NCBI GenBank assembly: GCA_022563255.1
Contig: JADFNS010000014.1
Span: 1 to 64,000, forward strand
Source of the DNA: Pseudomonadota bacterium
GTDB taxonomy: Bacteria > Pseudomonadota > Gammaproteobacteria > Steroidobacterales > Woeseiaceae
Direction: 5' to 3'
DNA length: 64,000 nt
The notes beneath the pieces are model-generated. The model made no database searches. It was not told the origin of the DNA and saw only the letters and a program-made list of their open reading frames with translations. Both the position numbers and the translations under genes were made by a program. Below are positions 18,865 through 41,669 of the stretch, piece by piece; position 1 is the first letter of the stretch, and each line of letters starts with the position of its first letter.

Positions 18865-18921
18865 AAGGCGCAGAGCATAGCGTAGCCGCGCAGATGACGA
18901 CAGTGGCCAATTTGAATTATC

Positions 18922-21019: not shown

Positions 21020-21079
21020 GCGTTGTCCTCGTTTTCGGCGAATGGAAAATGATTATAGAAGTTGACTGCCGGGGAATGA

Positions 21080-25150: not shown

Positions 25151-26563
25151 CTATTTTATTTCTTTGATGTTCTTTATAGAGTCAACGTAACTTTTGTCGG
25201 CGCTGAAACCAAGCGGCAGCAAAGGCGTTACCGATACACCACTTAGCACGCCGCTGTAGAACTCGCCCGAGGCCGACGTGTAGTTGAGCCCGGCGACGTC
25301 GTGAATAACGTAGGGCTCGCCATCGACTTCACCAATGTACATCATGACGTGGCCCGGGATGAAGATCAGGCTGCCAATGTCCAGTGATCGCAGTTCCTCT
25401 AATTTTCTTGACGTTTGCTCGTCGCCATCGAAGCGCGAGTTACGACCTATCGCGCTGTTGCTTTGATCGCCTGAGTTGCGCGGCAAGTAGACGCCGAAGC
25501 TCTTGTAAATTTCAGCGACGAAGCCCGAGCAGTCGCGAGCATTGTAAGAGTGTCCCCAGCCATAGCGCTCGCCGAGGAATTTGAAGGACTGCGATATCAG
25601 GTTATCCCGCGTGTACGGCAGGTAACCGACGGATACGTCGGCGCTGCGCGCAATCAGCGCCAACTCGAGACGAAGTTCGCCCGCCGCATTGCGCACCGGC
25701 AGTTCGACTGTATAACTGGCGTAGGGGTTTTGGCCGTGCAGATTGTTGCTGACGTCTGCGGGTCGTGCCAGCGGCAGGCGTATGCCCATATCAAGCTGCA
25801 GCTCGGAAATTTCCGGTACGTGGGGGTTGTAGGTTGTGATGACCTTGTTGCCGGTGATGACGACGAACTCAGGCCGATCCTTGTACGCGAATACGATTTC
25901 GCGACTGCCGATCGCGATGGCCGTGGATTGGACCCAGGCCAGATAGTTATAACTCTGCACAAGCAACCATTCGCCGTCAGTGCTGGCGTGCAGTATCGCG
26001 ACAACGTCCGCCGGAAAAAGCGCGTTCTCCTGAAAACGGTCGAGGTCGGAATGCGCTGCGGTCTTGAAGATGCGATCGTCAGTCGGATAGGTGCGCATGT
26101 CGGCGCGGGTGACGGCCATGCCGAAGCGTACCGGGTTGGTGTCGCGGATATCGTCGCGGTTCAGGCTCGCTTCGTAACGGGTATAGTCGGCGTCGCTGAC
26201 CAGGACGCCGCTGGCGTAAAAGCGGTCGCCTTTTGCGCGCCGGCTGATTTTTTGCACCAGGCTCAACAATTGTTCGGCGCCCAATACATCAGGATAGTCG
26301 CCGAGGTAGACCATCGTGTCGGACGTTGCGAACGACTGCTCATTCAGGCGGGCAATGCCGGGACCGGACAGCAATTCAGCTGCGCCGTCTGCCGCTCGTT
26401 CAATCCAGTATTTCGGTGTCAAGAAAGCGTCCTCAATGCCGATGACATCGGTGGTGAAGCCGGGGTCGTCGGTGTCTGTGACAGCCTCGGGCCGATCGTC
26501 GGAACAGGCGGCCGTCAGTGCAAGACCCAGCAGCGCCAGGCATTTACAGCCGTCAGTGATCAA
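25151..26563 (-). CDS. NlpC/P60 peptidase with SH3-like domains, lipoprotein
   Basis: A 470-residue protein. The N-terminus ends in LTAAC (Cys20), a plausible lipobox, so it is probably membrane-tethered. Residues about 90-320 form SH3b-type barrels (for example YNYLAWVQSTAIAIGSRE, the family bSH3 pattern). The C-terminal NlpC/P60 domain has the catalytic Cys345 in NARDCSGFV, His405 in IPGHVMMYIG and His421 in YVIHDV. Such YkfC-like enzymes cut the gamma-D-Glu-diaminopimelate bond of stem peptides with a free N-terminal L-alanine, leaving L-Ala-D-Glu. That product is the substrate of the epimerase encoded next to it, which strongly supports the pairing. Divergent from nothing; the amidase gene lies 85 bases upstream on the same strand. 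Confidence 0.92.
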   Translation of the reverse strand: MITDGCKCLALLGLALTAACSDDRPEAVTDTDDPGFTTDVIGIEDAFLTPKYWIERAADGAAELLSGPGIARLNEQSFATSDTMVYLGDYPDVLGAEQLLSLVQKISRRAKGDRFYASGVLVSDADYTRYEASLNRDDIRDTNPVRFGMAVTRADMRTYPTDDRIFKTAAHSDLDRFQENALFPADVVAILHASTDGEWLLVQSYNYLAWVQSTAIAIGSREIVFAYKDRPEFVVITGNKVITTYNPHVPEISELQLDMGIRLPLARPADVSNNLHGQNPYASYTVELPVRNAAGELRLELALIARSADVSVGYLPYTRDNLISQSFKFLGERYGWGHSYNARDCSGFVAEIYKSFGVYLPRNSGDQSNSAIGRNSRFDGDEQTSRKLEELRSLDIGSLIFIPGHVMMYIGEVDGEPYVIHDVAGLNYTSASGEFYSGVLSGVSVTPLLPLGFSADKSYVDSIKNIKEIK

Positions 26564-26648: not shown

Positions 26649-27626
26649 TTATATGGCGTCCAGGGTTGCGCCTTCAGCTTCTCCGACGGGGTGATCGTCT
26701 GTAGCGCAAGACTCCGGAACGCCTAACAATTCGTCCAGGCGCTCGGGATAGTATTTTTCGATCAGGGCAACCAGGATCGCCACCGTATCCGTTGTTGCTT
26801 CGCTGCTTACCTCGGAGGGCCGGAAGTGCATCTGAAACGCGCGCAGAACATTGCGCGTATGTTCATCGAGCACTCCCGAGGTCTCGATACCGTAGCCGTA
26901 GACCTGGAGGCCAAACTGGACGTTGCACATCGGTAGGGGGTGCTGCGCAAACTGTTCCCAGTAGCGAATGACGGTTGCATCGTCGAACCAGGCGCCGTAG
27001 CCCAGACGGTACAAACGCTGCCAGGGAAAACGCGGGCCCGGATCGATTTTCCGGTCGGGCGCAATGTCAGCGTGGCCAACGATCCGCGTGGGTTGAATGT
27101 CGGGGTGCCGTTCGCGAATTTTTGCCAGCAGCGCGACAAGCAGGTCTATCTGTCCGTCCGCGAAATCCGGATAGAAACAGATTCTCGGTTTTTGACCATC
27201 GGACCCATTATTTTCCACGCTGCTGGTGTGGCAGTAAGTCTGATTGACCAATTCAATGCCAATGGATTGGTCATTGAGCCCGATCTTGCCGCCCCAGCTG
27301 CTGTCGCCGGCATGCCATGCGCGCCGCGCTTCGGGCACCAGCTGATAGACTCGCATTCTGTGTCGCTCATAGCTTGGGTCGCCCGGTTCAGGGATCAGGT
27401 AGTGGGAGCTCACCGGGCGATCGGATGGCTGAGTCAGAATGCGCAGCGAGTCCTCGAAATTCCCCGTCGTATGGTGAATGACGATAATGCTGACGCGGCT
27501 GTTGTGATTTACGGATGGAGACGAACTGGGGCGTGACGTGCCACAGCCCGCTAGAATACTCGCTGTCAGGCCAATTAGCAGCGACAGGCGCAGTGTGGGG
27601 AAACGAATAGAGCAGTGCTTGGGCAT
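26649..27626 (-). CDS. AmiD/AmpD-like N-acetylmuramoyl-L-alanine amidase, lipoprotein
   Basis: A 325-residue protein with a lipobox LAGC (Cys28), an amidase_2 domain (about 45-215) and a C-terminal peptidoglycan-binding-like helical part (about 235-290). The zinc ligands are His51 (VIHHTTG), His185 (IVGHADIAP) and Asp195 (KIDPGP), and Glu125 is in SIGIELVN. Such enzymes cut the bond between MurNAc (or anhydro-MurNAc) and the stem peptide. The outer-membrane lipoprotein form resembles E. coli AmiD, which can act on wall fragments in the periplasm. The gene is divergent from the TonB receptor gene across a 123-base gap, and is probably cotranscribed with the NlpC/P60 and epimerase genes. Confidence 0.92.
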   Translation of the reverse strand: MPKHCSIRFPTLRLSLLIGLTASILAGCGTSRPSSSPSVNHNSRVSIIVIHHTTGNFEDSLRILTQPSDRPVSSHYLIPEPGDPSYERHRMRVYQLVPEARRAWHAGDSSWGGKIGLNDQSIGIELVNQTYCHTSSVENNGSDGQKPRICFYPDFADGQIDLLVALLAKIRERHPDIQPTRIVGHADIAPDRKIDPGPRFPWQRLYRLGYGAWFDDATVIRYWEQFAQHPLPMCNVQFGLQVYGYGIETSGVLDEHTRNVLRAFQMHFRPSEVSSEATTDTVAILVALIEKYYPERLDELLGVPESCATDDHPVGEAEGATLDAI

Positions 27627-27692: not shown

Positions 27693-27749
27693 ATGCGGAG
27701 CCAAACAGCCATAGGCAAAATGACGATTACAGTCAGGGGGAAAATAACA

Positions 27750-30713
27750 ATGTCCAGATTCATTCCGCGGTTGGTACAGTCCCAGCCGAAAATTCATGCG
27801 CTCGTTACCTGGCTCTTGCTGGGACTTGCGATGGCGTTATTCGCGGCTCCGGCGAGCGCACAGCAGTCCGGCGATATAACGGGTTCTGTGATGCAGGCGG
27901 ATGGTGCAGGTGTCGCCGGTGTTTCGGTTGAGGCCAGCAGCAACGTTTTGCCACAGGCACGATCTGCGACCACAGCGTCCAACGGTCGATATTTGCTGCG
28001 GCTGTTACCGCCAGGTGACTACGACGTCAAATTCACGTTCAGCGACGGCTCTTCGGAGACTCGCAGCACCGTCGTACGGTTGCAGCAACGGTCAACCGTC
28101 AATGTCATGCTGGGAGCGACGATGGACGAGATCGTTGTCACAGCTTCGCAAGGCCTTCTGGATCCTGGTCAGGGCGCGCTAAAGAATTCGATCAACGCAC
28201 GAACCATCGACGCCTTGCCTGTTGGACAGGAATATCGCGACCTGATGAAACTGATTCCTGGCGTGCAGTACACAGAGAATGCGGTACGCGGCCCGAGTGC
28301 CGGCGGCAGCGGCCAGGACAACACCTACCTGTTTGACGGCGTTGACGTGTCTTTACCCCTGTTCGGCGTATTGGCGTCCGAGCCTTCGATCCACGATATC
28401 GCCCAGGTATCCATCGTTCGCGGCGGCGCCAAGGCAGTCGGATTCAACCGTTCCGGTGGTTTCCTGATGAACACGATCAGCAAACGCGGCTCCGACGAGT
28501 TTCACGGCGAGGTCAGCTACCAGTTCCAGAACGACGGCATGGCGGGAAGTCGCGATAGCGGGGCTGCCTTGCTGGCGTTTGAAGAAGACAGGTCCTGGAC
28601 GACGTTCAGCCTGGGCGGACCGATTCTGCGTGATCGCCTGTATTTCTACACGTCATACTATCGTCCGGACTTTTCGCGCAGCAATGTCGCGAACGTCTAC
28701 GGCCCGGTTGGTGGATTCGAGAACATTCGCGACGAATATTTCGTCAAACTGACGCTCGCGCCGACCGACAATATTCTGCTTGACGCCAGTTACCGCACGT
28801 CGGATCGCGAAGTGGCTAATGCCAGTATCGGTGCCTTTTCAGCGGCGACCGCATCGCAGGGCTCGGAGGCGACACAGGATATTCTGATTCTTGAAGGAGC
28901 GTGGATATTGAGCGATACGACATCGTTGAATTTCAAGTACACGGACTTTGAGAACAAGAATTCGAGCAGGCCGGATACGCAGTTCAATTTTGCGACTGTG
29001 GCAGGTGATTCGCTCAATGTCGGCGCACTGGACCAGCAAGGCTCTTTCAGTGTGCCACAGCCAATCACAGGCGAGACAGACTACAACGCGTTTATTCAGC
29101 CATTGATCGATCAGTATGGTTACAGTGACGGCGGTGTGCAGACAGGTGGTGGTGCGGTCGGCGGTTATTTCCGCTTCAACGAGCAGGATTTCTTCCGCGA
29201 GAGCTTCGAAATCAGCCTTGACCATGTGATCTATGCGGGCGACACAACGCACGATCTGCACTTTGGTTACCAGTTCATGGACATTGCGGAAGACGTCGCA
29301 CGCACATCGAATGGCTGGGGCCGCATTTCAGTGCCCGGCGGCCGTACATTGACAGACAGCGGTGTGCCTATTTTCTACGAGGCTCGGATTTACCAGCAAT
29401 CCCTGGTCGATACGAGCGGAGTAGCGCTGGTGCCGTCGATTTTCTCGAGTTCCGAGTTACAGAGCATCGAGTTCAACGACACCATCACCAAGGGTGACTG
29501 GACCTACAATATCGGCGTGATGATCAGTAACGATACGCTGTTCGGTCAGGGTCTGGCCCCTGACGCGTCCAATCCCCTCACGGGTCTTACACCCTCGCCT
29601 GGCACGCCGTACAAGATGTACGAAGTGGACTGGAAGGACATGATTCAGCCGCGTCTTGGTGCGAAGTGGGAGTATTCCGATACAGCGTCCTTGTACTTCA
29701 ACTACGCTCGCTACAATCCGTCGGCGTCGTCACTCGCGCGCGCAGCTTCCTACGATCGCAACCTGCGCCGGGAGATTCGCGTGCGCTGGGATGCCAACGG
29801 CGATTTCATCGAAATCGATCCGGTCAGTGCATCGTCTGGCAAGTGGTTCCAGGAAAACATGACACCTCGCAGAACGGACGAAGTTCTGATCGGAACGGTG
29901 CAGGAAATGTCCGGTGACTGGACATTGCGGGCACATGTTCGCCATCGCAGATCCTCACATTTCTGGGAAGACACGTTTAATTCAGGACGCTTGTTCTGGG
30001 AGCCACCGGCAGGAATTCCGCGCGAACTGTATATCGAGAATCTGCAGGACATTCGAGACGAAATTGGCGGGTCTTCGTTCGTCATCGCTGATCTCGACGG
30101 CGCTCTTACGAAGTACTGGGAAGCCAGCGTCGAGGCCGAGTGGACTCGCGACAACTGGTTCCTGCGCGGTTCCTACGTCTGGAGTCACTACTACGGCAAC
30201 TTCGATCAGGATCTGACGACGACTTTCAACGATCAGGCTATCTTTATAGGCTCATCGAATATCGCCGACGCCGCCGGACGAAACCTCTGGGATTTCAAGT
30301 ACGGCAACCTCAGTGGCGACCGTCGCCATATGTTGAAAGTCTACGGATACTACGAGTTTGAGAGCTGGAATAGCAGTGTCGGTGCGGTCCTTATCGCGCA
30401 GTCCGGAGAGCCCTGGGAGACCTGGGACAGCAATTTCTATCGCGCTTTGACGGGTAGTACCAGCGACACGATTCGCTTCTCCGAGCCCGCGGGTTCGCGC
30501 ACGACATCGGCGCATTGGCAGCTGGACGTGAATTACACGCACAATTTCGCGTTTGGCGACTACAATCTGCAATTACGCGCCGATGTGTTCAACCTGTTCG
30601 ACAAGCAGACTGGCTATGCCATTCAGCGCAAGATCAACAATTCCGGATACGGTCAGCCGACGAACTCTTTCCGGCCTCGCCTTCTCCAGGTGGCGGTCAA
30701 GCTAGCGTTCTGA
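27750..30713 (+). CDS. TonB-dependent receptor with N-terminal carboxypeptidase-regulatory-like domain
   Basis: From the ATG at 27750 (GGGGG 10-14 bases upstream) the protein has 987 residues. It starts with a signal peptide ending in ASAQQ, then a CarboxypepD_reg-like beta domain (about 35-110; GDITGSVMQADGAGVAGV, SNGRYLLRLLPPGDYDV), then a plug (about 115-270; MDEIVVTAS, LPVGQEYRDLMKLIPGV, VSIVRGGAKAVGF) and a large barrel with the final aromatic residue (VAVKLAF). This is the SusC/OmpA-like class seen in Bacteroidetes and in some gammaproteobacteria for oligosaccharide or peptide uptake. Its place between amidase genes makes it the best candidate for importing muropeptides over the outer membrane. 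No SusD-like partner is present. Confidence 0.9.
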   Translation: MSRFIPRLVQSQPKIHALVTWLLLGLAMALFAAPASAQQSGDITGSVMQADGAGVAGVSVEASSNVLPQARSATTASNGRYLLRLLPPGDYDVKFTFSDGSSETRSTVVRLQQRSTVNVMLGATMDEIVVTASQGLLDPGQGALKNSINARTIDALPVGQEYRDLMKLIPGVQYTENAVRGPSAGGSGQDNTYLFDGVDVSLPLFGVLASEPSIHDIAQVSIVRGGAKAVGFNRSGGFLMNTISKRGSDEFHGEVSYQFQNDGMAGSRDSGAALLAFEEDRSWTTFSLGGPILRDRLYFYTSYYRPDFSRSNVANVYGPVGGFENIRDEYFVKLTLAPTDNILLDASYRTSDREVANASIGAFSAATASQGSEATQDILILEGAWILSDTTSLNFKYTDFENKNSSRPDTQFNFATVAGDSLNVGALDQQGSFSVPQPITGETDYNAFIQPLIDQYGYSDGGVQTGGGAVGGYFRFNEQDFFRESFEISLDHVIYAGDTTHDLHFGYQFMDIAEDVARTSNGWGRISVPGGRTLTDSGVPIFYEARIYQQSLVDTSGVALVPSIFSSSELQSIEFNDTITKGDWTYNIGVMISNDTLFGQGLAPDASNPLTGLTPSPGTPYKMYEVDWKDMIQPRLGAKWEYSDTASLYFNYARYNPSASSLARAASYDRNLRREIRVRWDANGDFIEIDPVSASSGKWFQENMTPRRTDEVLIGTVQEMSGDWTLRAHVRHRRSSHFWEDTFNSGRLFWEPPAGIPRELYIENLQDIRDEIGGSSFVIADLDGALTKYWEASVEAEWTRDNWFLRGSYVWSHYYGNFDQDLTTTFNDQAIFIGSSNIADAAGRNLWDFKYGNLSGDRRHMLKVYGYYEFESWNSSVGAVLIAQSGEPWETWDSNFYRALTGSTSDTIRFSEPAGSRTTSAHWQLDVNYTHNFAFGDYNLQLRADVFNLFDKQTGYAIQRKINNSGYGQPTNSFRPRLLQVAVKLAF

Positions 30714-30775: not shown

Positions 30776-30817
30776 GGGCAGCCTCTTGAGGCGTGCATGT
30801 TTGACAGGGTTGATGCC

Positions 30818-32428
30818 ATGCCGTTCCGGATATTCATTTCGCTGCTGTTGTTGCCAGTTATGGCGAATGCCACTGCGGTGGTGCAGTCGCCCACCGACCT
30901 GACGGCGGCGAGACATCACTACCAATACCTGATCGAACAAGCCCGGCTGCGTTATCCGGCGCTTCCCGCCGGCCTTCTCGAAGCCCAGGCCTATGTTGCA
31001 ACTCGTTGGCAACATCGGCTGCCCGATGACAGTGTCAGACATCACGGCATGCCCCCGGTAGTCGGTTTATTCGGCCTTTACAGCACCAGCGAACACGGCT
31101 TCGTTGACCTGCTCGGCAGCGTGGCCGCGTTCAACGGGCTCTCGAAAGTGGAGCTGATGGCAAGCGAAGAAACGTATATTTTCGCAACAGCGGCTTTTCT
31201 CGAAGAACTAATCCTGTCGCAAGGATTACAGGGTGGCCAGATAGAGGACTTCGCACCGGTTTTCGCCACGTTGTCGGGCATTGAGGTCAGTTCGGATGCG
31301 AGCCAGTACGCTGTCAATAGTCATGTCTACGAGGTCTATAAAATAGTTGGCGCTGGCGTCGAAAAAGACGGTATTCAGATCACGGCACAGCGAGTGGATT
31401 TACAAAAAATCTTCACGTCTGACGAGCTCGCACAGCTTGGTGCCTCGGAGCTCGTGATCGACGTCGCTGTTGACAAAAACGATACCGCCAAAAAAAAAAT
31501 TGTTTCCTTCGCTGGTTCAGTCGCACTCCCTGAGCAGATCAATGTCGACTATCCGGGTGCGACCTGGGTAGAGGCTCTCTATTGGAGTTCGCGCAACGGG
31601 TCGGCGATGACGCACGTCGTAATCCACACCATGCAAGGCTCTTATGCCGGCAGCATCAACTGGTTCCTGAATTCCGACTCGGAGGTCTCGTCGCACTACC
31701 TGATGCGAAGCTCGGACGGCCAGATTACGCAGATGGTGCGCAATGCCGACAAAGCGTGGCATGCACGCAGTGCGAACGTTTACACCGTAGGCATCGAACA
31801 CGAGGGTTTCGTTGATAATCCCGAGTGGTATACCGATGTCATGTACGACGAGTCGGCAAAGCTGACAGCCTACCTTTGCAACGCTTATTGGATTGATTGC
31901 TCGCGAGCCTACGATGGCGTGTCGCACTCGAGCGTCGTCGAGCTCAGCAACGACTTCACGGTCAAGGGACATCAGCATTACCCTGAACAGGTGCACTCGG
32001 ATCCTGGCATCAACTGGGATTGGCCGCGCTATCACTCCCTCTTGAACGGTGGCGTCATACCGCCCGAGGTCAATTTCCTGCCGGTCGCCGATTTCGTTTC
32101 CGATTGCACGGGCCTGAGCTGCAGTTTCGACGCAACGGGCAGTACGGATTCCGATGGCACGATCGCGAGTTACTTGTGGGACTTTGGCGACGGGGGCAGC
32201 GGGCTGACGGTCACGATTTCACACAGCTACGCGGCGGCCGGTAATTTCAGCGTCAAGCTGGCCGTTGCGGACGACAAAGGGGCGATTCACGAAAAAACGA
32301 CGATTGTCGTCCTGCAAAATTCGCCGCCGGTCACGCATAAAAAATCCGGCGGCGGAGCATTGTCCGTGTTGTTGCTGGGCCTCCTGGCGCTGGCGGCCGC
32401 TCGGATGCGTAGCGCGGCACTGGCCTGA
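30818..32428 (+). CDS. N-acetylmuramoyl-L-alanine amidase with PKD domain and GlyGly-CTERM tail
   Basis: From ATG 30818 (AGGG about 9 bases upstream) the product has 536 residues; ATG 30797 is the alternative. A signal peptide (MPFRIFISLLLLPVMANA) leads to an N-terminal region of unknown family (about 20-250), then an amidase_2 domain (about 255-410): VVIHTMQGS with the first zinc histidine, SSHYLMRSS, TVGIEHEGF, and GHQHYPEQVHSDPG with the last ligands. A PKD domain follows (about 415-505; DATGSTDSDGTI, WDFGDGGSG). The end, KSGGGALSVLLLGLLALAAARMR, is a GlyGly-CTERM signal, which is cut by rhombosortase so that the enzyme is released or attached at the cell surface. This amidase is therefore a secreted wall-attacking enzyme. 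Confidence 0.9.
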   Translation: MPFRIFISLLLLPVMANATAVVQSPTDLTAARHHYQYLIEQARLRYPALPAGLLEAQAYVATRWQHRLPDDSVRHHGMPPVVGLFGLYSTSEHGFVDLLGSVAAFNGLSKVELMASEETYIFATAAFLEELILSQGLQGGQIEDFAPVFATLSGIEVSSDASQYAVNSHVYEVYKIVGAGVEKDGIQITAQRVDLQKIFTSDELAQLGASELVIDVAVDKNDTAKKKIVSFAGSVALPEQINVDYPGATWVEALYWSSRNGSAMTHVVIHTMQGSYAGSINWFLNSDSEVSSHYLMRSSDGQITQMVRNADKAWHARSANVYTVGIEHEGFVDNPEWYTDVMYDESAKLTAYLCNAYWIDCSRAYDGVSHSSVVELSNDFTVKGHQHYPEQVHSDPGINWDWPRYHSLLNGGVIPPEVNFLPVADFVSDCTGLSCSFDATGSTDSDGTIASYLWDFGDGGSGLTVTISHSYAAAGNFSVKLAVADDKGAIHEKTTIVVLQNSPPVTHKKSGGGALSVLLLGLLALAAARMRSAALA

Positions 32429-32436
32429 TTGAACCA

Positions 32437-34746
32437 ATGAAGCGACTCAAATGTTTCGTGGCGTTCTGTTGCATGTTGCAGCTAACGGGTGTCGTCTTGG
32501 CGCAGAATGCGCCTCGCCTGACGTTGCCGGCGCTGGCGGACGCGGATTATGATTGGATCGCCCGGCGCATTGGCGAGAACGAAACTGGCGGCAAATACAA
32601 TTTCCTGACCTACTGGGGTGCGGGCGAGGACTTCCCGTCTCTGGGTATCGGACATTTCATCTGGTTTCCGAGCGGTGTTGACGCGCCGTTCGACGAGTCG
32701 TTCCCGAATCTGGTCGCCTATCTTCTCGATGGCGCCGCGCATCCCGATGCTCCCTCCTGGCTGCTGGCCTTACAGCCGTTCGATGCCCCCTGGAGCAGCA
32801 AGAGAGAATTTGACGAGGCGCTGGGTTCACCGGCCATGGCGGCTCTTCGCGCATGGCTTGCCGAAACATCGAGTTTGCAGGCTCGGTTCATTGTTGAAAG
32901 CTTCAACAAGCGCTGGAACAGACTCGTTCTGCCGTCGTCGAAAAAGGCCCGATTGACGGTGATACTGCAGGAAATGGTGGCCTCGCCCGCAGGCTTGTTC
33001 GCCGTTGTCGACTATTACAACTTCAAGGGTCTTGGCGTTAATCCGCTGGAACGTTACCAGGGACAGGGTTGGGGACTCATCCAGGTGCTCGCGGACGTCG
33101 CGAGCCAGATTGATGGCGATGCCGAAACCGATCTGGTTTTGCTTTTCAGTCGTGCCGCGGCAGCGCGTCTGCAACAGCGCGTGGAATTGTCTCCCGCAGC
33201 GCGCAACGAAGTTCGCTGGCTGGCCGGCTGGCGCAAGCGTGTCGCGAGCTACGCAAGCGAAACCACGCTCGTCCCCGCCGGCAATGTTTTTCGCATCATG
33301 CCCTATGTGCAAAACCCGGCCAGCGATGCGATGACGCTGACATGGTTCAGCGCGGACAACAGCGTCGGGTTGGTGGAGCTGCGGCTCTGCGGAGGCGACG
33401 AAAGCACGGTTTATCGGTCGAGCCCGGTTGCGGCGATGGCGCTGGCCTATCATGCAGCGGAGGCACGCGAATTCGTGGGTTCGCCGCCACCGATTCCGTA
33501 TCAACACGCGTTGAGATTGTCGGGACTCGAATCTGGCCGTAATTATTGTTATGAAGTTACACAGGGTGAGCAACGAATAACGGGCCGCTTCCGGACAGCG
33601 GGCGCCGCAGACGAGGCGGTTCGCTTCATTGTCTATGGCGACAGCGAAACCGAGCCCGAGTCGACGGGCAAGCACGCTTTGTGGTCATTGCCGGGAGCCG
33701 ACCTTGATGTGCGCCGATACCTTGTTGACCAAAGCACAGGTTATGCCGAAAACATTACTGTCATGCTGCGCCGGCAACCGGACTTCGTGGCGATTGCTGG
33801 CGATCTGGTTGAGTCCGGCGGCGAGCAGCGGGACTGGGATGAATTCTGGCGGCAAAATTCCCGGCTGGCAGCCTCGATACCCATTGTGCCGGCGCTCGGA
33901 AATCACGAATATTACGGCGGCCCCGGGGAGTTCGGCGCTTATTCCAACACGGCGTCTCGCCGTGCCATAGCAAAATTCAAGACCTATTTCGAAACCGGAT
34001 CCTACTATGCACTGGACTATGGGCCGCTGACGCTGATTGTCGTGGACGGTAACAACGGCGTTCCCGAGAAATCGCAGTCGGACACCAACTGGTATTTGTC
34101 CGGCGAGGACGGCGGTGGCGTCGCGCCGGCCTGGAACACGTCGTCCGCGCAAATGGACTGGCTGGAGCGCGAACTCGCCAGCGCGCAACGAGACAAGCAG
34201 TTTACGTTCGTCATGTTTCACGCCCCGCCGTATTCGTCGGGCATCCACGGCAAGCCACCGGGATTGGCGCAGGCGCACAACTTCGCGTCGGGTCGTCCTT
34301 TGCAGGCACTGACGTCGCTTTTCCTGCGTTATGGCGTGGACGCAGTGTTCAACGGCCACGATGAGATGTACGAGCACTCCGTGGTCCGGGGCGTTGAAGA
34401 ACACCCCGATGGCAGTCAAACCCCGCACACCGTGCACTTCTTTACCGTCGGGATCGGTGGTGACGGGTTGCGCGGTCCGGACGCCCGCGCCAACAATCCG
34501 CAAAGCGTATTTCTGGCGCACAACGACGCTCCGGAGATTTACGACGATAATGGTGTATTGACAAGCGGCGGCAAACACTATGGACATCTTGAAGTGAATG
34601 TAGAGCAGGATGCCAGCGGGCAGTGGTTCGCGCGAATCGAACCGGTGATCGTTTTTCCGCTCGCTCGCGCGGACGGTCGTATAGACAGTTTCGAGCGCCG
34701 CGTCTATGACGACGTAACGGTCCTGGGAAATGCGTATGAGCATTAA
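32437..34746 (+). CDS. Exported fusion: lysozyme-like domain plus calcineurin-like phosphoesterase
   Basis: A 769-residue protein with a signal peptide ending near VVLAQ. Residues about 30-270 form a domain with IARRIGENETGGKYNFLTYW, GEDFPSLGIGHFIWFPSG and QGWGLIQVLADV (as separated motifs), which resembles proteins annotated as lysozyme/transglycosylase-like; Glu in IGENETGG is a candidate acid. Residues about 280-390 look like a fibronectin/purple-acid-phosphatase N-terminal beta domain. From about 395 a metallophosphoesterase follows: VYGDSE, AGDLVESG, LGNHEYY, FHAPPYSSG and FNGHDEMYE supply the metal ligands. The first motif has GDSE instead of GDxH, as in purple acid phosphatases. It may release phosphate or teichoic-like groups while its first domain works on wall glycans. 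The gene starts nine bases after the amidase stop. Confidence 0.8.
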   Translation: MKRLKCFVAFCCMLQLTGVVLAQNAPRLTLPALADADYDWIARRIGENETGGKYNFLTYWGAGEDFPSLGIGHFIWFPSGVDAPFDESFPNLVAYLLDGAAHPDAPSWLLALQPFDAPWSSKREFDEALGSPAMAALRAWLAETSSLQARFIVESFNKRWNRLVLPSSKKARLTVILQEMVASPAGLFAVVDYYNFKGLGVNPLERYQGQGWGLIQVLADVASQIDGDAETDLVLLFSRAAAARLQQRVELSPAARNEVRWLAGWRKRVASYASETTLVPAGNVFRIMPYVQNPASDAMTLTWFSADNSVGLVELRLCGGDESTVYRSSPVAAMALAYHAAEAREFVGSPPPIPYQHALRLSGLESGRNYCYEVTQGEQRITGRFRTAGAADEAVRFIVYGDSETEPESTGKHALWSLPGADLDVRRYLVDQSTGYAENITVMLRRQPDFVAIAGDLVESGGEQRDWDEFWRQNSRLAASIPIVPALGNHEYYGGPGEFGAYSNTASRRAIAKFKTYFETGSYYALDYGPLTLIVVDGNNGVPEKSQSDTNWYLSGEDGGGVAPAWNTSSAQMDWLERELASAQRDKQFTFVMFHAPPYSSGIHGKPPGLAQAHNFASGRPLQALTSLFLRYGVDAVFNGHDEMYEHSVVRGVEEHPDGSQTPHTVHFFTVGIGGDGLRGPDARANNPQSVFLAHNDAPEIYDDNGVLTSGGKHYGHLEVNVEQDASGQWFARIEPVIVFPLARADGRIDSFERRVYDDVTVLGNAYEH

Positions 34747-36223
34747 CATTGGTGTAACGGATTCACTGATCGTGGTCGCCTACATGCTGGCCGTGGTGCT
34801 GTTCGGCATCTGGGTTGGCCGTAAGGGAAAATCGTCGACTGACTATTTCCTGGGTGGGCGATCGTTGCCGTGGGGCGCGGTGCTGTTGTCGATCGTTGCG
34901 ACTGAGACGAGTACCGTCACGTTCCTAAGTATTCCGGGCATCGCAGCAGCAGCAGGCGGCGACATGACATTTTTGCAAATCACGATCGGTTATATCGTTG
35001 GCCGACTCGCCGTCATTTTTGTCTTGTTGCCGCTGTACTTCAAGGGCGAGCCATTGACGGCTTACGAAGTTCTGGAGTCACGCTTCGGTAAAATGAGCCG
35101 CCGCACGGTGGCGGGACTTTTCCTGGTGACGCGCAACGTCAGCGACTCGCTGCGGTTGTTCCTGACGGCGATGGTGTTGCAGATCGTGTTGGGCCTCAAT
35201 CTTGCGATCAGCGTTGTGTTCATCGGTGCGGTCACCATTGTCTACACGTTCATCGGCGGCGCCAAATCCGTCATCTGGAACGACTGCATACAGTTCGTCG
35301 TCTATATGCTGGGAGCGGCCGCGGCAGCTGTAATAATCATCGACCTGACGCCCGGCGGCCTGGACGAGGTACTGCGATTTGCGGCATCCGAAGATAAATT
35401 ACGCGTGTTCGATTTCGACTTGAGCCCGTTCAAATCGTCGATGACATTCTGGGCGGGCCTCGTGGGCGGCGCTTTCCTGACGGCGGCCACGCACGGCACC
35501 GATCAACTCATGGTGCAACGCTACCTGTCTTCGCGGAGCCAGACGGAGGCTTCGCTGGCTCTCGGCCTCAGCGGGTTCATTGTCCTGATCCAGTTCGCGG
35601 TATTCCTGTTGATCGGCATCGGCCTCGCCAACTTTTTCGGTCTGGCAGGCAATGAAACTGGCCTGAGCACTCTCAAGAACGACCAGTTGCTGGCGCACTT
35701 CGTTGTGAATTACATGCCAGTCGGCGTGCTCGGTCTGACGCTCGCCGCGGTATTTGCGGCAGCGATGTCCACCCTGTCAAGTTCGTTGAATTCCTCGGCG
35801 GCGGCATTTGTGAACGACCTCTACTGGCCGCTGCGCAAGAGCAATCCCGATGAACGCACGCAGCTGCGCGCCGGGCGAACGGCTACTGTCGCCTTCGGCC
35901 TGGTACAAATGGGACTCGCGATCTTGTTCGGTTGGGTCGGCACCGACGAGAGCACCGTGAGCAATGTGCTGAAAATCAGCGGCTTCGCGATCGGGCCGGT
36001 ACTCGGACTGTATTTCCTTGCCGTGCTCGTGCCGCGCGTTGCACAGCGAGCGGCGTTGTCGGGGTTTGTGGCGGGCGTTGCCGTTCTGTCCTGGGTGGCA
36101 ATGAAGACGGGCGTCTACTGGGCCTGGTACGCGGCGATCGGCTCATTGGTGACAATGGGGTCGGCCTGGATTTTTCAAAACATTATGGGGGACGCGGAGC
36201 AATCCGTGGCAAGCGATGACTAA
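34730..36223 (+). CDS. Sodium:solute symporter (SSS family)
   Basis: A 497-residue transporter with about 13 hydrophobic helices and the SSS features: SSTDYFLGGRSLPWGAVLLS near residues 36-55, ATETSTVTFLSIPG, FVYMLGA, and the ATHGTDQLMVQRYLSSRS segment. The family uses the Na+ gradient to import sugars, amino acids, sialic acid or carboxylates. ATG 34730 overlaps the end of the phosphoesterase gene by 17 bases; ATG 34736 is possible. The neighbours (D-lactate-type dehydrogenase, nagA, nagB) suggest that it imports GlcNAc, MurNAc or D-lactate, but the substrate cannot be derived from sequence. Confidence 0.88.
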   Translation: MRMSINIGVTDSLIVVAYMLAVVLFGIWVGRKGKSSTDYFLGGRSLPWGAVLLSIVATETSTVTFLSIPGIAAAAGGDMTFLQITIGYIVGRLAVIFVLLPLYFKGEPLTAYEVLESRFGKMSRRTVAGLFLVTRNVSDSLRLFLTAMVLQIVLGLNLAISVVFIGAVTIVYTFIGGAKSVIWNDCIQFVVYMLGAAAAAVIIIDLTPGGLDEVLRFAASEDKLRVFDFDLSPFKSSMTFWAGLVGGAFLTAATHGTDQLMVQRYLSSRSQTEASLALGLSGFIVLIQFAVFLLIGIGLANFFGLAGNETGLSTLKNDQLLAHFVVNYMPVGVLGLTLAAVFAAAMSTLSSSLNSSAAAFVNDLYWPLRKSNPDERTQLRAGRTATVAFGLVQMGLAILFGWVGTDESTVSNVLKISGFAIGPVLGLYFLAVLVPRVAQRAALSGFVAGVAVLSWVAMKTGVYWAWYAAIGSLVTMGSAWIFQNIMGDAEQSVASDD

Positions 36224-37598
36224 CGACATTATTACTCAGCTGGCGGACGTCGTCGGCGCCGGATCCGTGCTTACCGGTGATGCGGTTGCGCGCCGCAAGT
36301 TTGCGTGGGACACACATGATCGTTGCCGCGCCAAGGCGCTTGTCTTTCCGGTTTCGACGGCAGAGGTATCGCGGATACTGAGTCTCTGCAACGCCAGCGG
36401 ACAAACAGTCGTGCCTTTCGGCGGGACGACGAATCTGGTGCAGGGCTGTGCCACGACGGCTGATGATATCGTCATCTCGCTGGAAAAAATGAACACGATC
36501 GAAGAACTCGATCGCTCGGCGCGCACGATCGTCGCACAAGCGGGAGTCACGATGCAGGCAGCGCAGCAAGCCGCCGCGGATGTCGGGTTGCTGTTCCCCG
36601 TCGATACCGGCGCGCGCAGCAACTGCATGCTCGGTGGCATGGTGTCGACCAACGCCGGCGGTACCAAGGTCATTCGTTATGGCATGACTCGCGATTCGGT
36701 TCTCGGCCTCGAAGCCGTACTGGCGGACGGCACCGTCGTGACGTCGATGAACCACTTCATCAAAAATAATTCCGGATTCGATCTCAAGCACCTGTTCATC
36801 GGCAGCGAAGGAGTGCTCGGCATCATTACCCGGGTGGTGCTGCAGCTCGCTACGCAGCCGACGTCGCACAACGTCGCATTACTGGCCTGCGACAGTTTTG
36901 ACGATGTTGTGAAAGTGCTCGGACACGCTCGCGACGACCTGCCGAATACGCTGACAGGGTTTGAGGTGATGTGGAACAGCTTTTACGAACGCGCCGTCGA
37001 GCCGCACGGGCGTCTGGCTGCACCACTTGCGACCGGGTCGTGTTGCTATGTATTGCTCGAATCCATGGGCGTCAACGACGAGCAAGACGGCGCTGCATTC
37101 GAGAAAACGATGGAGTCGTTGCTGCAAGAAGAACTCGTTGCCGATGGATTGCTTGCGAAGTCAGACAAGGAACGCGATTTGATTTGGGCGATACGTGATG
37201 AGGTGGAACCGTTTCTCGGGGTGGCGCGGAACTTCGACGTCAGCCTGAAGAGCGCCGATGTCGGCGTCTACCTCGCGGCAGTCGAAGCGGCGATAAAATC
37301 GGAATTTAAAACCGCAGAGGTCGTGGGATTTGGCCATCTTGGCGACAACAACGTGCATGTGTCAGTGCTCGTCGACGAGCAGACTGAGGAAGTGACGCAG
37401 CGGATCGAAGAAATTGTCTATGCGCGACTCAAGCCTTACGACGGCGCTATTTCGGCCGAGCATGGCATCGGCCTGGAGAAGCGCGCCTATTTGCCCATCA
37501 GCCGCAGCCAGGCCGAGATTGACCTGATGATCAGGCTCAAGCGGATGATGGATCCGAACAATATTTTAAACCCGGGCAAGGTTGTGGATGCCCAATGA
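36216..37598 (+). CDS. FAD-linked 2-hydroxyacid dehydrogenase (GlcD/D-lactate dehydrogenase type)
   Basis: A 460-residue flavoprotein of the VAO/PCMH fold. The FAD-binding part (about 40-210) has VPFGGTTNLVQG, STNAGGTKVIRYGMTRDSVLGLEAVLADG. The C-terminal half has GFGHLGDNNVHVSV and AEHGIGLEKR, which contain the catalytic and metal-binding histidines of D-lactate, D-2-hydroxyglutarate and glycolate dehydrogenases. Its location in the same operon as nagA and nagB, and near murQ, is telling: MurQ releases D-lactate from MurNAc-6-phosphate, so a D-lactate dehydrogenase would use that side product. This substrate is inferred. The start overlaps the symporter stop by eight bases, and its stop overlaps nagA (ATGA). 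Confidence 0.88.
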   Translation: MTNDIITQLADVVGAGSVLTGDAVARRKFAWDTHDRCRAKALVFPVSTAEVSRILSLCNASGQTVVPFGGTTNLVQGCATTADDIVISLEKMNTIEELDRSARTIVAQAGVTMQAAQQAAADVGLLFPVDTGARSNCMLGGMVSTNAGGTKVIRYGMTRDSVLGLEAVLADGTVVTSMNHFIKNNSGFDLKHLFIGSEGVLGIITRVVLQLATQPTSHNVALLACDSFDDVVKVLGHARDDLPNTLTGFEVMWNSFYERAVEPHGRLAAPLATGSCCYVLLESMGVNDEQDGAAFEKTMESLLQEELVADGLLAKSDKERDLIWAIRDEVEPFLGVARNFDVSLKSADVGVYLAAVEAAIKSEFKTAEVVGFGHLGDNNVHVSVLVDEQTEEVTQRIEEIVYARLKPYDGAISAEHGIGLEKRAYLPISRSQAEIDLMIRLKRMMDPNNILNPGKVVDAQ

Positions 37599-38740
37599 GG
37601 CAATTGCTTCACAATTGTCGCGTCTTCGATGGAGAATGTGTCCACGACGATCTGGCGGTATTGGTCAGCGATGGCAAGGTGCTGGAACTCGTTGCGGCCG
37701 GCCAAAAGGCGACGGCGGCAGTCTCTGTGGATCTCTCCGGCAATCTGCTCGCGCCTGGCCTGATTGATCTGCAGATAAACGGTGGTGGTGGTGTGCTGTT
37801 CAATGACGCGCCGTCGGTTGATACCCTGGTCACGATCGCTGCAGCACACAGGCCGTTTGGAACGACGGCGTTCCTGGCTACGCTGATCAGCGACGACGAC
37901 ACCGTCATGGAACGCGGCATTGCGGCCGTTAAAGCCGCCATATCGCAAGGTCTGCCCGGCGTGCTCGGCATACATCTTGAAGGGCCGTATCTGAATCCAC
38001 AGAGAAAAGGCGTGCACGATGCCGCCAAGATTCGTGGCTTCGACGAGCAGATGGTGGAGTTGCTGAGTTCGCTGCACCATGGCAGTACATTGCTGACGGT
38101 TGCGCCGGAAAAGCTGCCGGTCCGGGCGATCACAACGCTGACCGAGCGTGGCGTTGTGGTTTTCGGCGGCCACAGCGCCGCGACCTATGCACAAACGCGA
38201 GCCGCGCTGGATGCCGGCTTGCGCGGATTTACGCATTTGTTCAACGCGATGGAGCCGTTGCAAAGTCGCGAGCCCGGCATGGTCGGCGCGGCGCTTGAGG
38301 ACGCGAATAGTTATATTGGCATCATCGCCGACGGTTATCACGTGCACCCGGCGACGTTCAGCGTGGCCATAGCGGCGAAAGCGGCGGGCAAATCGATTCT
38401 CATCAGCGACGCGATGCCGTCAGTCGGAGCCAGCGAGAAATCGTTTTGGCTTAACGGCGAGCGCATCGAGGCTGGCAACGGTCGTTGCACGACCGCGGAC
38501 GGCAGGCTGGCTGGCAGCGATATCGGCATGATTGAGGCCGTGAGAAATGCCAGCCGATTCGCGAATATCGATAGCTTCGAGGCTTTGCGCATGGGTTCCG
38601 CCTATGTGGCCAATGCTTTAGGCGTTGACGATCGGCTCGGCTACATCCGCCCTGGCTACCGTGCGAATTTCATTGAGCTAGACGAGTCGTTCGCCGTTGT
38701 GAGTAGCTGGATCGATGGTGAGAGGCAGGTGCACCGCTGA
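37595..38740 (+). CDS. nagA: N-acetylglucosamine-6-phosphate deacetylase
   Basis: A 381-residue amidohydrolase-superfamily enzyme. Family landmarks are LIDLQINGGGGVLFND, GIHLEGPYLNPQRKGVHD (metal-binding Glu), FGGHSAATYAQ, GFTHLFNAMEPLQSREPGMVG with the metal histidine, IIADGYHVHP, and LISDAMPSVG with the catalytic Asp. It turns GlcNAc-6-phosphate into GlcN-6-phosphate and acetate, the step between MurQ/kinase and NagB. The ATG overlaps the dehydrogenase stop by four bases, and nagB begins one base after its own stop, so the three are translated as a unit. Confidence 0.95.
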   Translation: MRQLLHNCRVFDGECVHDDLAVLVSDGKVLELVAAGQKATAAVSVDLSGNLLAPGLIDLQINGGGGVLFNDAPSVDTLVTIAAAHRPFGTTAFLATLISDDDTVMERGIAAVKAAISQGLPGVLGIHLEGPYLNPQRKGVHDAAKIRGFDEQMVELLSSLHHGSTLLTVAPEKLPVRAITTLTERGVVVFGGHSAATYAQTRAALDAGLRGFTHLFNAMEPLQSREPGMVGAALEDANSYIGIIADGYHVHPATFSVAIAAKAAGKSILISDAMPSVGASEKSFWLNGERIEAGNGRCTTADGRLAGSDIGMIEAVRNASRFANIDSFEALRMGSAYVANALGVDDRLGYIRPGYRANFIELDESFAVVSSWIDGERQVHR

Positions 38741-38741
38741 T

Positions 38742-39539
38742 ATGGACGTCATCGTTCTCAAGAAGAGCAGTGCTGTAGCCGCCTGCGGAGCGGGCCTGAT
38801 TCAGCAGCTTTTGCAAACGAAGCCGGCTGCCGTGCTCGGACTGGCCACCGGCAATACGCCGCTGGCCATGTATCAGTGCCTGATTACCGCTTGCGATAAT
38901 GGCGACGTATCGTTTCGCGACGTAACGACGTTTAACCTTGATGAGTACGTTGGCATCGATGCCGGCAATCCCGCCAGCTATCGTTCGACGATGAAACGCG
39001 AATTGTTTGATCGCATCGATATCGATCAGGCACGGACCTATCTGCCCGAGAGTGATGCGGGCGTGGATCCATCGGCTACGGGTCCGGCTTACGAGGAGGC
39101 CATCCTCGCGGCTGGCGGCATCGATCTGCAAGTCCTGGGCATCGGCCGCAATGGGCACATTGGCTTCAATGAGCCGACCTCGAGTCTCGGCTCCCGCACC
39201 CGCATCAAGACGCTCACGCAACAGACGCTGCAGAGCAACAGCCAGTACTTCGCAGATTCCGGAACGCAGCCGCAGGTGGCCGTGACGATGGGCATAGCCA
39301 CTATTCTGGATGCGCGGCACATTTTGTTGCTGGCGACCGGAGTGGAAAAGGCGCAGGCCGTGCGCGATGCGATCGAGGGGCCAGTGACGGCGATGTGTCC
39401 GGCGTCGGCGCTGCAGCTGCACCGAAAAGTGACGGTGTTGCTCGACGATGAGGCGGCCTCGTGTCTGGCCATGCGCGATTACTACGACTGGGTGCATCGG
39501 CAAAAACAGCGCTTCGGCAAGGAGTTCACCGCGTGTTAG
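38742..39539 (+). CDS. nagB: Glucosamine-6-phosphate deaminase
   Basis: The ATG at 38742, one base after the nagA stop, gives a normal 265-residue NagB. The phosphate loop is seen as GLATGNTPLAMY, the catalytic Asp in FNLDEYVGID and the base/histidine region in GIGRNGHIGFNEPTSS. It converts glucosamine-6-phosphate to fructose-6-phosphate and ammonia, the final step that brings wall amino sugars into glycolysis. The gene is convergent with namZ, with an eight-base gap. Confidence 0.95.
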   Translation: MDVIVLKKSSAVAACGAGLIQQLLQTKPAAVLGLATGNTPLAMYQCLITACDNGDVSFRDVTTFNLDEYVGIDAGNPASYRSTMKRELFDRIDIDQARTYLPESDAGVDPSATGPAYEEAILAAGGIDLQVLGIGRNGHIGFNEPTSSLGSRTRIKTLTQQTLQSNSQYFADSGTQPQVAVTMGIATILDARHILLLATGVEKAQAVRDAIEGPVTAMCPASALQLHRKVTVLLDDEAASCLAMRDYYDWVHRQKQRFGKEFTAC

Positions 39540-39547
39540 CTGGGCAT

Positions 39548-40750
39548 TCAGTCGTACAACAGAAATTTCTCACGGCGCGCGCGAAAATCTGCGAGATCCG
39601 CAGCGAAGACGGCTTCGATATCGTCGAGAGAGCCGCCCTCGCGGATCGCCTTGAGCGTCGCCGCAGACCCAAGCAAGCGCAGATAGGAATTGACCTCCCA
39701 GATGTTGCCGTGCAGCAGTATCAGCTGCACGACGATCTCGAAGCCGAGCCGCAGCGGATCGAAGCGATCACGGTCGGTGATAACGATGCGCAGGCCGTTG
39801 CAACGAATATTCTCGAATTTGCTTGCAGCGGGCGTGAACTCGATGGCGTCGAATCGCACGCCGGGAATGGCGAGCTCGGTCAGTTGCGCGGCGAGCAATT
39901 CGGCATTCAGCCAGGGCGCGCCGAAAAGCTCGAAAGGCGTTGCCGTGCCTCGGCCGACCGAGAGATTGGTCGTTTCGAGCAGACCGATCCCCGGATAGAG
40001 AATTGCGGCCGTCAAATTTCGAATGTTGGGCGACGGGTTGATCCAGGTCAGCCCGGTGGCGTCGAAATATTCGGCGCGATGCCAGCCTCGCATGCGCACG
40101 ACATGCAGATCGAGATCGAGTTGCAGTTCGGTATTGAACATTCGCGCCAGTTCGCCGATTGTCATGCCGTGGCGCACCGGCAGACGATGGAAGCCGACAA
40201 AGGATTGTTTGCCGTCGTCGAGCACAGGCCCGGCGACGTCGTGGCCGTTAATGGGGTTGGGCCGGTCCAGAACGACAAACCGGATGCCGTTTTCAGCGGC
40301 GGCCTGCATCGCGTAGCCCATCGTGGATATATAAGTGTAAAAACGGGTGCCGATATCCTGGATATCGAAGACGAGAATATCGATATCCGCAAGCATGACG
40401 GGTGTCGGTCGGCGGACCTCGCCGTACAGGCTGACGATCGGGATACCGCTGCGGACTTCAACTCCATCGCGGATGACAGGAATGTCGAGGGTACCGCTGA
40501 TGCCGTGTTCGGGACTGAAGACCCGGACGAGGTCGACATTCGCGGCGTCATGCAGCAGGCGGATGTCGCTGTTGCCAAGGCGATCGACGCCGGTGTGATT
40601 CGTAATCAGGCCGACGCGGCCGGTCGAGAGCAATCGATAGTCGTCTTCGGCCAGCACGTCGATGCCGGTGAGTACGGCATGCGCGCGCGGCTGTGCAATA
40701 GCCAGGCTGGTGTGAACCAGCAGCAGGCAACAAAGCAGACAACGAATCAT
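39548..40750 (-). CDS. namZ: Exo-beta-N-acetylmuramidase NamZ (DUF1343)
   Basis: A 400-residue exported protein with a signal peptide (MIRCLLCCLLLVHTSLAIAQ). The DUF1343 landmarks are GLITNHTGVDRLG, FSPEHGISG, LYGEVRRPTPVML, FDIQDIGTRFYTYISTMGYAM, VLDRPNPI and NLSVGRGTATPFELFGAPWL. NamZ from Bacillus and Tannerella releases terminal MurNAc from peptidoglycan fragments from the non-reducing end (glycosidase family GH171); the Glu in SPEHG is the proposed catalytic residue. The freed MurNAc would be phosphorylated by the kinase at 41662 and cleaved by MurQ. The start codon lies only 22 bases from the divergent murQ start. Confidence 0.93.
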   Translation of the reverse strand: MIRCLLCCLLLVHTSLAIAQPRAHAVLTGIDVLAEDDYRLLSTGRVGLITNHTGVDRLGNSDIRLLHDAANVDLVRVFSPEHGISGTLDIPVIRDGVEVRSGIPIVSLYGEVRRPTPVMLADIDILVFDIQDIGTRFYTYISTMGYAMQAAAENGIRFVVLDRPNPINGHDVAGPVLDDGKQSFVGFHRLPVRHGMTIGELARMFNTELQLDLDLHVVRMRGWHRAEYFDATGLTWINPSPNIRNLTAAILYPGIGLLETTNLSVGRGTATPFELFGAPWLNAELLAAQLTELAIPGVRFDAIEFTPAASKFENIRCNGLRIVITDRDRFDPLRLGFEIVVQLILLHGNIWEVNSYLRLLGSAATLKAIREGGSLDDIEAVFAADLADFRARREKFLLYD

Positions 40751-40772
40751 TACGGCACATTACAATAGAACT

Positions 40773-41669
40773 ATGAACAATGAATTGACGACAGAAGCGC
40801 GCAATTCCGATTCAGAGAATCTGGACGAGCTCGATACGCTGGACCTCGTGCTGCTGATCAATCGTGAAGATGCGAAAGTATCGCTGGCCGTTCACGAACA
40901 GGCGCGGCAGATTGCACAGGCTATCGACCTGATCGCCGCGAAGCTGAACGGCGGCGGGCGACTGATCTATGTCGGCGCCGGCACGTCGGGACGGCTTGGC
41001 GTGCTGGATGCGGCCGAATGTCCGCCAACCTTCAACGCGGATCCTGGGCAGGTAATTGGATTGATAGCGGGCGGCTCTGCGGCATTAAAAAATGCGGTTG
41101 AAGGCGCTGAAGATTCTGCGTCGGGCGGCGCCAGCGACCTCAAGGACATCAAGTTGAGCGCAGACGATGTTGTCGTCGGCATAACAGCCAGTGGCAATGC
41201 GCCCTATGTCCTGGGCGCTCTTGCTTTTGCCAGGAGCATTGGCGCCGGCACGGTCGGATTCAGTTGCAATCGCGGCACCGAAGTTCTGGAAGGCGCCGAC
41301 ATTGGTATCGCTGTCATTGTGGGTCCCGAGGTCCTTTCCGGATCGACCCGTATGAAGGCCGGTACGGCGACAAAAATGGTGCTGAACATGCTGACCACCG
41401 GCGTCATGGTCAAACTTGGCAAGACCTACGGCAACTTGATGGTCGACCTCCAGGCGGCGAACAGTAAGCTCGAAGATCGTGCGGTGCGTATCGTGGTCGC
41501 ACTGACCGATTTGTCGTTTGCTGCTGCCAGCGACTTGCTGGCCTCGTGCGATGGCGAAGTGAAGACTGCGATCGTCTGTCAGCGGCTGGCTTCGTCGCCC
41601 GAGGCCGCACGTTCACGGCTGCAGCTGTCGAACGGGAGGCTGCGCGCCGCATTGCGCAAACATGAGTAG
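40773..41669 (+). CDS. murQ: N-acetylmuramic acid 6-phosphate etherase
   Basis: A 298-residue SIS-domain lyase that splits MurNAc-6-phosphate into GlcNAc-6-phosphate and D-lactate. The signature GAGTSGRLGVLDAAECPPTF is present (catalytic Glu in AAEC), followed by GLIAGGSAALKNAVEGAEDS, GITASGNAPYVLGAL and the KAGTATKMVLNMLTTGVM block. The length is normal. It has only 22 bases between its ATG and that of namZ, so its promoter must overlap the namZ 5' region. The stop overlaps the kinase start by eight bases, giving a tight murQ-kinase-permease operon. Confidence 0.96.
   Translation: MNNELTTEARNSDSENLDELDTLDLVLLINREDAKVSLAVHEQARQIAQAIDLIAAKLNGGGRLIYVGAGTSGRLGVLDAAECPPTFNADPGQVIGLIAGGSAALKNAVEGAEDSASGGASDLKDIKLSADDVVVGITASGNAPYVLGALAFARSIGAGTVGFSCNRGTEVLEGADIGIAVIVGPEVLSGSTRMKAGTATKMVLNMLTTGVMVKLGKTYGNLMVDLQAANSKLEDRAVRIVVALTDLSFAAASDLLASCDGEVKTAIVCQRLASSPEAARSRLQLSNGRLRAALRKHE

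Follow-up and report, generated by a model that had tools for sequence, protein, structure and literature searches.

A lysozyme-superfamily domain family and its fusion to a purple-acid-type phosphoesterase within a putative peptidoglycan-catabolism island of Woeseiaceae

The 64,000-nucleotide stretch of a Woeseiaceae genome analysed here (the window) carries an uninterrupted frame of 769 codons at 32437..34746 (+), the translation of which (769 aa) contains the IGENETGG, SLGIGHFIWFP and GDSE motifs. A probable signal peptide (32437..32502, +), read by eye from the sequence, is followed by a predicted lysozyme-superfamily domain (approximately residues 23–277; 32503..33267, +), delimited by predicted structure and fold comparison, and then by two domains that make up a phosphatase part: an Fn3-like domain (approximately residues 285–386; 33289..33594, +; Pfam, model and fold comparison) and a metallophosphoesterase domain with a purple-acid-phosphatase fold (approximately residues 394–769; 33616..34743, +; Pfam and fold comparison). 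As stated in the preliminary description, the gene is placed after that of a secreted amidase, an Amidase_2 protein with a PKD domain (30797..32428, +; Pfam) which ends 8 bases upstream of the fusion start codon; at its 3′ end the fusion gene overlaps by 17 bases the gene of a sodium:solute symporter (34730..36223, +; Pfam and NCBIfam).

These genes belong to an island that appears to serve peptidoglycan catabolism. Its upstream part comprises an L-Ala-D/L-Glu epimerase-like enolase-superfamily protein (24039..25139, −; below the NCBIfam cut-off), an NlpC/P60 protein with an SH3 domain (25151..26563, −) and an Amidase_2 with PG_binding_1 (26649..27626, −), the latter two recognized by domain search, and a probable TonB-dependent-type outer-membrane receptor (27693..30713, +), in which only CarboxypepD_reg passes Pfam and which was given the TonB label by eye. 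Downstream of the symporter lie a GlcD-like FAD oxidase, putatively oxidizing lactate (36216..37598, +; below the GlcD cut-off), NagA (37595..38740, +), NagB (38715..39539, +), a member of the NamZ exo-beta-N-acetylmuramidase family placed between NagB and MurQ (39548..40750, −) and MurQ itself (40773..41669, +), these four by domain search, and further a BadF-type sugar kinase (41662..42615, +; below the strict NCBIfam cut-off) and an AmpG-like permease (42616..43884, +; below the AmpG cut-off). With MurQ, a kinase, NagA, NagB, a permease and an exo-hexosaminidase, the island holds the components of a peptidoglycan amino-sugar catabolic locus. The putative catabolic region extends upstream over genes for an LD-carboxypeptidase (at 17827, −), a diaminopimelate/ornithine-decarboxylase-family protein (19751, −), a Na+/H+ antiporter-family protein (21080, +) and a beta-lactamase-family protein (22465, +). 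The forward ORF at 39461-40768 (+) is probably not a gene, being the antisense of NamZ.

The fusion is not an accident of assembly, because it recurs in one open frame across other genomes of the family and on separate contigs, which also rules out chance. Among 107 genomes of the window's family, ten besides the window encode the full-length fusion in one open frame at 54–66% identity (a count that includes G048 and G077, both cut at the contig end), and one copy sits on a genome assembled as a single 4.06-Mb contig (G105). Five more family genomes encode the N-terminal domain without an adjoining phosphoesterase, three of them at contig ends (G033, G052 and G005), and three further ones match the phosphoesterase part only, and weakly. 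Across the genomes of 84,980 species we found at least 582 candidate stretches, at least 546 of which encode a relative of the N-terminal domain; the best 80 of these relatives were kept as named loci, and ten of the 80 contigs carry the fusion (L017–L020, L022–L025, L027 and L031). Since most of these are the same contigs as in the family-genome set, the search for the same fusion yielded ten further family genomes and, in addition, the MAG contigs L018 and L024. A mobile origin was rejected, as viral, plasmid and PHROG searches yielded no relative: the plasmid collection gave no match to the protein, the pattern scan of viral contigs gave 174 pattern matches with no relative among them, the single PHROG match (E 0.1) covers residues 2–22 only, and none of the 47 weak hits of the viral fold search (the top ones being labelled as a glycoside hydrolase, a structural protein and an endolysin) reached E≤0.001.

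For residues 1–282 neither Pfam nor NCBIfam gave a match, and no PDB sequence scored better than E 0.84. The AlphaFold2 model of the N-terminal domain, built on a 64-row alignment (pLDDT 94.1, pTM 0.91), shows the overall fold of the lysozyme superfamily. The top two Foldseek hits in the PDB were chitosanases (E 0.012 and 0.57), and when Foldseek's own hit list was re-aligned with VIA-align, ranks 1–11 were chitosanases (Z 9.3–10.6), one of them titled GH46 and the remaining ten presumably GH46 as well; then came the domain of a Vibrio cholerae T6SS effector (a muramidase; Z 9.3 and 8.8), T4 lysozyme chimeras and pesticin (Z 7.6 down to 5.7) and the phi6 lysin (Z 4.9 and 4.6). Judged by title and aligned range, rows 1–36 of 50 all belong to the lysozyme superfamily or represent T4-lysozyme chimeras, and the first unrelated row stands at Z 4.5. 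According to passages of PMC2976769, the core common to this superfamily consists of a helix, with the catalytic Glu in its C-terminal part, and of a conserved beta-hairpin whose Ser/Thr is in contact with the catalytic water. Both elements are found in the model, in which E49 (model residue 28) lies within helix 14–29 and strands at residues 68–69 and 74–75 form a hairpin where S68 is present.

The residues expected to act in catalysis are invariant in every one of the 64 sequences aligned (the window and 63 of the 80 best loci): E49, which lies close to the C-terminus of the first long helix and is the candidate general acid (32581..32583, +), E64, the candidate general base (32626..32628, +), and S68, the candidate water-positioning residue of the SLGIGHFIW beta-hairpin (residues 68–76; 32638..32664, +). 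Among the tabulated sites, the same holds for W60, F66, G70, I71, H73, W76, D192, N195, K197, E205, W212 and G213, while G72 of the hairpin is kept in 59 of the 64. Since the patterns used to find the loci, WGL..QVL and DY.NFKG, sit at other places, the search does not account for the conservation of E49 and of the hairpin. In a sub-threshold profile stretch, moreover, slGigH aligns with TIGIGH of a T4-lysozyme chimera.

In sequence the domain joins neither of the two nearest families: PF00959 (Phage_lysozyme; GH24) was found in 0 of 64 members at E≤1 (hhalign probability 0.8%), and PF01374 (GH46) likewise in 0 of 64 (hhalign 0.2%, against only three sequences). Pfam and NCBIfam scans of the 64 members returned scattered unrelated families (best E 0.0022 and 0.00039), and TRIM5, the top match of a PDB profile search (E 0.032), was judged a chance match. 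Given the lack of GH24 or GH46 sequence membership, we regard the domain as a family separate in sequence that shares, as modelled, the fold of the lysozyme superfamily and that may already carry a CAZy family number. The preliminary description had called the first ~250 residues lysozyme-like and unlike any phosphatase; the predicted fold bears this out, as does the finding that the domain mostly occurs without a phosphatase. We reject the view that this part is only the usual N-terminal domain of purple acid phosphatases, because the phosphatase half has its own, separate Fn3-like domain and the extra domain is free-standing elsewhere.

Free-standing proteins, in open frames of 250–401 codons, account for 66 of the 80 best relatives (four of the 66 being cut by a contig end or having a stop inside the match), and by the crude rule of a regular expression 26 of the 80 have a lipobox-like motif. 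The domain is present in 50 of 398 genomes drawn evenly from the phylum and in 16 of the 107 genomes of the family. In Verrucomicrobia a YkuD-type protein (L,D-transpeptidase) follows the domain in 8 of 20 loci and a GH3 enzyme is nearby in 7 of 20, although these loci look like one lineage and Pfam was used to check the families in a single locus, L044, where NamZ is present too. Two distant open frames run on from the domain into Amidase_2, one in Cyanobacteria bacterium SZAS-4 (L094, 8034-9548) and one in the unclassified MAG bacterium CPR1 (L062, 1891-3495).

Parts of the island lie around the fusion at each of the ten named loci as well as in G105 (L137/L138), and likewise around a lone domain in L021, L026, L029, L041 and G067 (L136), where no phosphoesterase hit was found within the fetched flanks. 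The fusions of L018 and L024 stand in a different arrangement, with no receptor gene in the fetched flank. Some genes of the interval 17827-24036 recur in L018, L021, L024 and L025. NamZ is present in 8 of the 86 loci searched; of the 107 family genomes, 14 have NamZ and 16 have the domain, with both in 13, NamZ alone in one and the domain alone in three (Fisher p 4e-13, without correction for kinship). No other endo-acting glycosidase was recognized among the island genes scanned, and elsewhere in the genome there are four SLT-type proteins and, on another contig, one GH3 match. In the tree, a single set of 15 rows (support 87/90, not starred) takes in both the fused and the lone domains of the island group; the fusion label needs three changes, a number reached or undercut in 139 of 500 shuffles, so that fusions are not significantly clustered; one gain of the phosphoesterase with losses and several gains both fit this tree.

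The C-terminal part matches Metallophos in Pfam at residues 444–642 (E 9.6e-15) and, below the cut-off, Pur_ac_phosph_N at residues 290–385. In the full-length model (28 rows; pLDDT 80.8, pTM 0.64), several loops of which, some at active-site motifs, score under 50, this part has the fold of plant purple acid phosphatases including the Fn3-like domain (4dhl_C, Z 27.7, rmsd 3.0 over 356 residues), and Foldseek agrees (best E 2.9e-17). The second half is a purple-acid-type phosphoesterase, as had been proposed, and structure prediction of the two halves gives a lysozyme-superfamily fold joined to a plant-type purple-acid-phosphatase fold. Of the complete metallophosphoesterase motifs claimed along with it, the metal-2 ligands and the catalytic His are indeed there, whereas two metal-1 ligands are replaced. 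D456, N489, H595 and H641, which we take to be the metal-2 ligands (Asp, Asn, His, His), and H490, presumably the catalytic His, are invariant in 11 of 11 fusions, as are D402 (assigned by motif order, not by alignment), E404 and E643. The Tyr of GDLxY and the second His of GHxH, by our assumption the metal-1 ligands of purple acid phosphatases, are both replaced throughout: in profile alignments the second His of the kidney bean GHxH corresponds to E643 (34363..34365, +), and the Tyr of lupin PPD1 to position 459 (33811..33813, +), which is E in seven and Q in four of the 11. Strong matches to this phosphoesterase subfamily were found in 12 of the 107 family genomes, 11 being fusions and one a separate protein (G067); in three other genomes the match was weak. 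The nearest separate relatives in the class occur in 4 of 229 genomes besides the window, and these keep GHxH where it is readable (L131, L132 and L133).

We suggest that the fusion is exported and acts on peptidoglycan as part of a system for scavenging cell walls, combining an endo-glycosidase with a phosphoesterase for a wall phosphoester, and we hold this to be the probable reading. The N-terminal domain would make internal cuts in the glycan strand, E49 acting as acid, E64 as base and S68 positioning the water; the amidases and NlpC/P60 would strip the peptides, NamZ would trim MurNAc off chain ends, the receptor, symporter and AmpG-like permease would import the pieces, and the kinase, MurQ, NagA, NagB and the FAD oxidase would feed them into central metabolism. 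The most likely role of the C-terminal domain, whose metal site is altered, is to hydrolyse a phosphoester attached to the wall polymer or close to it, for example MurNAc-6-phosphate or a teichoic-acid linkage stub. For peptidoglycan as the substrate speak the lysozyme-superfamily model with both defining structural elements and invariant E49, E64, S68 and H73, the island, parts of which recur beside fusion and lone domain alike, the co-occurrence with NamZ, the two Amidase_2 fusions and the GH3/NamZ/YkuD setting in a Verrucomicrobia group, and the lack of another recognized endo-acting glycosidase in the scanned island; the surroundings also strengthen the earlier suggestion of an action on wall glycans, and the other target suggested there, phosphorylated wall polymers, stays hypothetical. 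Against it stand the lack of a sequence link to a known glycosidase family (the best Foldseek E in the PDB being the 0.012 given above), best fold matches that cut chitosan and not peptidoglycan, conserved neighbours in Marinobacter and Thiomicrorhabdus which by eye do not look wall-related, and an 84% completeness of the window's own genome. NamZ requires MurNAc at the non-reducing end, so that a glucosaminidase would yield its substrate directly, whereas the products of a muramidase would need a GH3-type enzyme first.

Since lone domains fill the same slot in sister islands, we regard the glycosidase as the shared function and the phosphoesterase, which is found joined to the lysozyme-like domain in one lineage, as accessory. 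It is a serious possibility, if short of an even chance, that the phosphoesterase half has no catalytic activity, or serves to scavenge phosphate in general, and that only the glycosidase matters for the wall. All 11 fusions have two metal-1 ligands replaced, the related separate protein of G067 reads GNW instead of GNH, and sister islands do without the phosphoesterase; these facts point that way, and the low-pLDDT loops at the active site likewise weigh against a role on a wall phosphoester; but the invariance of D402, D456, N489, H490, H595 and H641 would be needless in a dead enzyme, and all 11 copies are fused, with one separate relative in 107 genomes. A bolder reading, to which we give a rather low probability, is that the N-terminal domain founds a new, widespread family of peptidoglycan glycoside hydrolases (in Verrucomicrobia, Marinobacter, Thiomicrorhabdus and Woeseiaceae) and that in the fusion a phosphoesterase with a carboxylate-rich metal-1 site strips phosphate-linked substituents so that decorated glycan gets cut.

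We think it unlikely that the fusion serves to remodel or recycle the wall of its own cell in the periplasm instead of digesting a foreign one. AmpG and MurQ function also in wall recycling, and in a Verrucomicrobia group the domain adjoins an L,D-transpeptidase, but the receptor-like gene and the secreted amidases point outward, the presence of the domain in 16 of 107 family genomes is unlike that of a housekeeping gene, and the genome has its four SLT-type proteins elsewhere. Although chitosanases hold all of the first 11 Z ranks, action of the N-terminal domain on some other beta-1,4 amino-sugar polymer, for instance chitosan or a deacetylated glycan, is improbable, given that the recognized island genes serve MurNAc and muropeptide use, that Amidase_2 is the partner domain in two distant loci, and that T4 lysozyme and the T6SS muramidase domain have the same fold.

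Compared with known systems, the domain shares with the GH46 chitosanases (7c6d, 6lwu, 1qgi) the fold and the order of a Glu in a helix and then a hairpin with Ser/Thr, and differs from them in having no sequence similarity and in being surrounded by wall-degrading genes. It has a GIGH hairpin where T4 lysozyme has TIGIGH, and is about 100 residues longer. The V. cholerae T6SS effector domain (4nso, 4noo; presumably VgrG3), aligned over 188 residues, belongs to an injected protein with an immunity protein, whereas the fusion is predicted to be an exported catabolic enzyme. Kidney bean 4dhl and lupin PPD1 (3zk4) share the Fn3-like and phosphoesterase folds, the metal-2 ligands and the catalytic His with the fusion, and have the metal-1 Tyr and His where the fusion has E/Q459 and E643; the phosphodiesterase PhoD (2yeq), judged by fold comparison alone, has the same fold and is a weaker match than the plant enzymes (Z 20.7, 13% identity). 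NamZ, MurQ, the kinase, NagA, NagB and the AmpG-like permease are common to the island and to NamZ/MurQ-type MurNAc utilization loci, to which the island adds a receptor, secreted amidases and the candidate endo-glycosidase with its phosphoesterase.

What is new here is a lysozyme-superfamily family that lacks annotation, together with its fusion to a phosphoesterase, by which two predicted activities are joined in one chain; in agreement with the preliminary description, which knew of no system joining them, our searches of an open-access library listed no report of the domain family or of the two activities in one chain. A testable function is thereby offered for a protein family present in hundreds of contigs of the one-genome-per-species collection. 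Woeseiaceae are globally distributed in marine sediments, according to the abstract of PMC7451513, and the island may show how they use the walls of dead cells; passages from two sediment papers contained no information about the gene.

Some minor observations concern single genes. The separate 742-codon phosphoesterase of G067 (L135, contig C41) has DSETEP and GHSE, and glycine/aspartate-rich repeats at its C-terminus. The frame antisense to NamZ, though probably no gene, has tblastn matches in relatives. Among the matches listed for the 80 named loci, none to the Amidase_2–PKD protein exceeds 60 residues, and this protein may have been added in the window's lineage; it ends in GGGALSVLLLGLLALAAARMR, a tail that looks, as far as we can judge, like a GlyGly-CTERM sorting signal.
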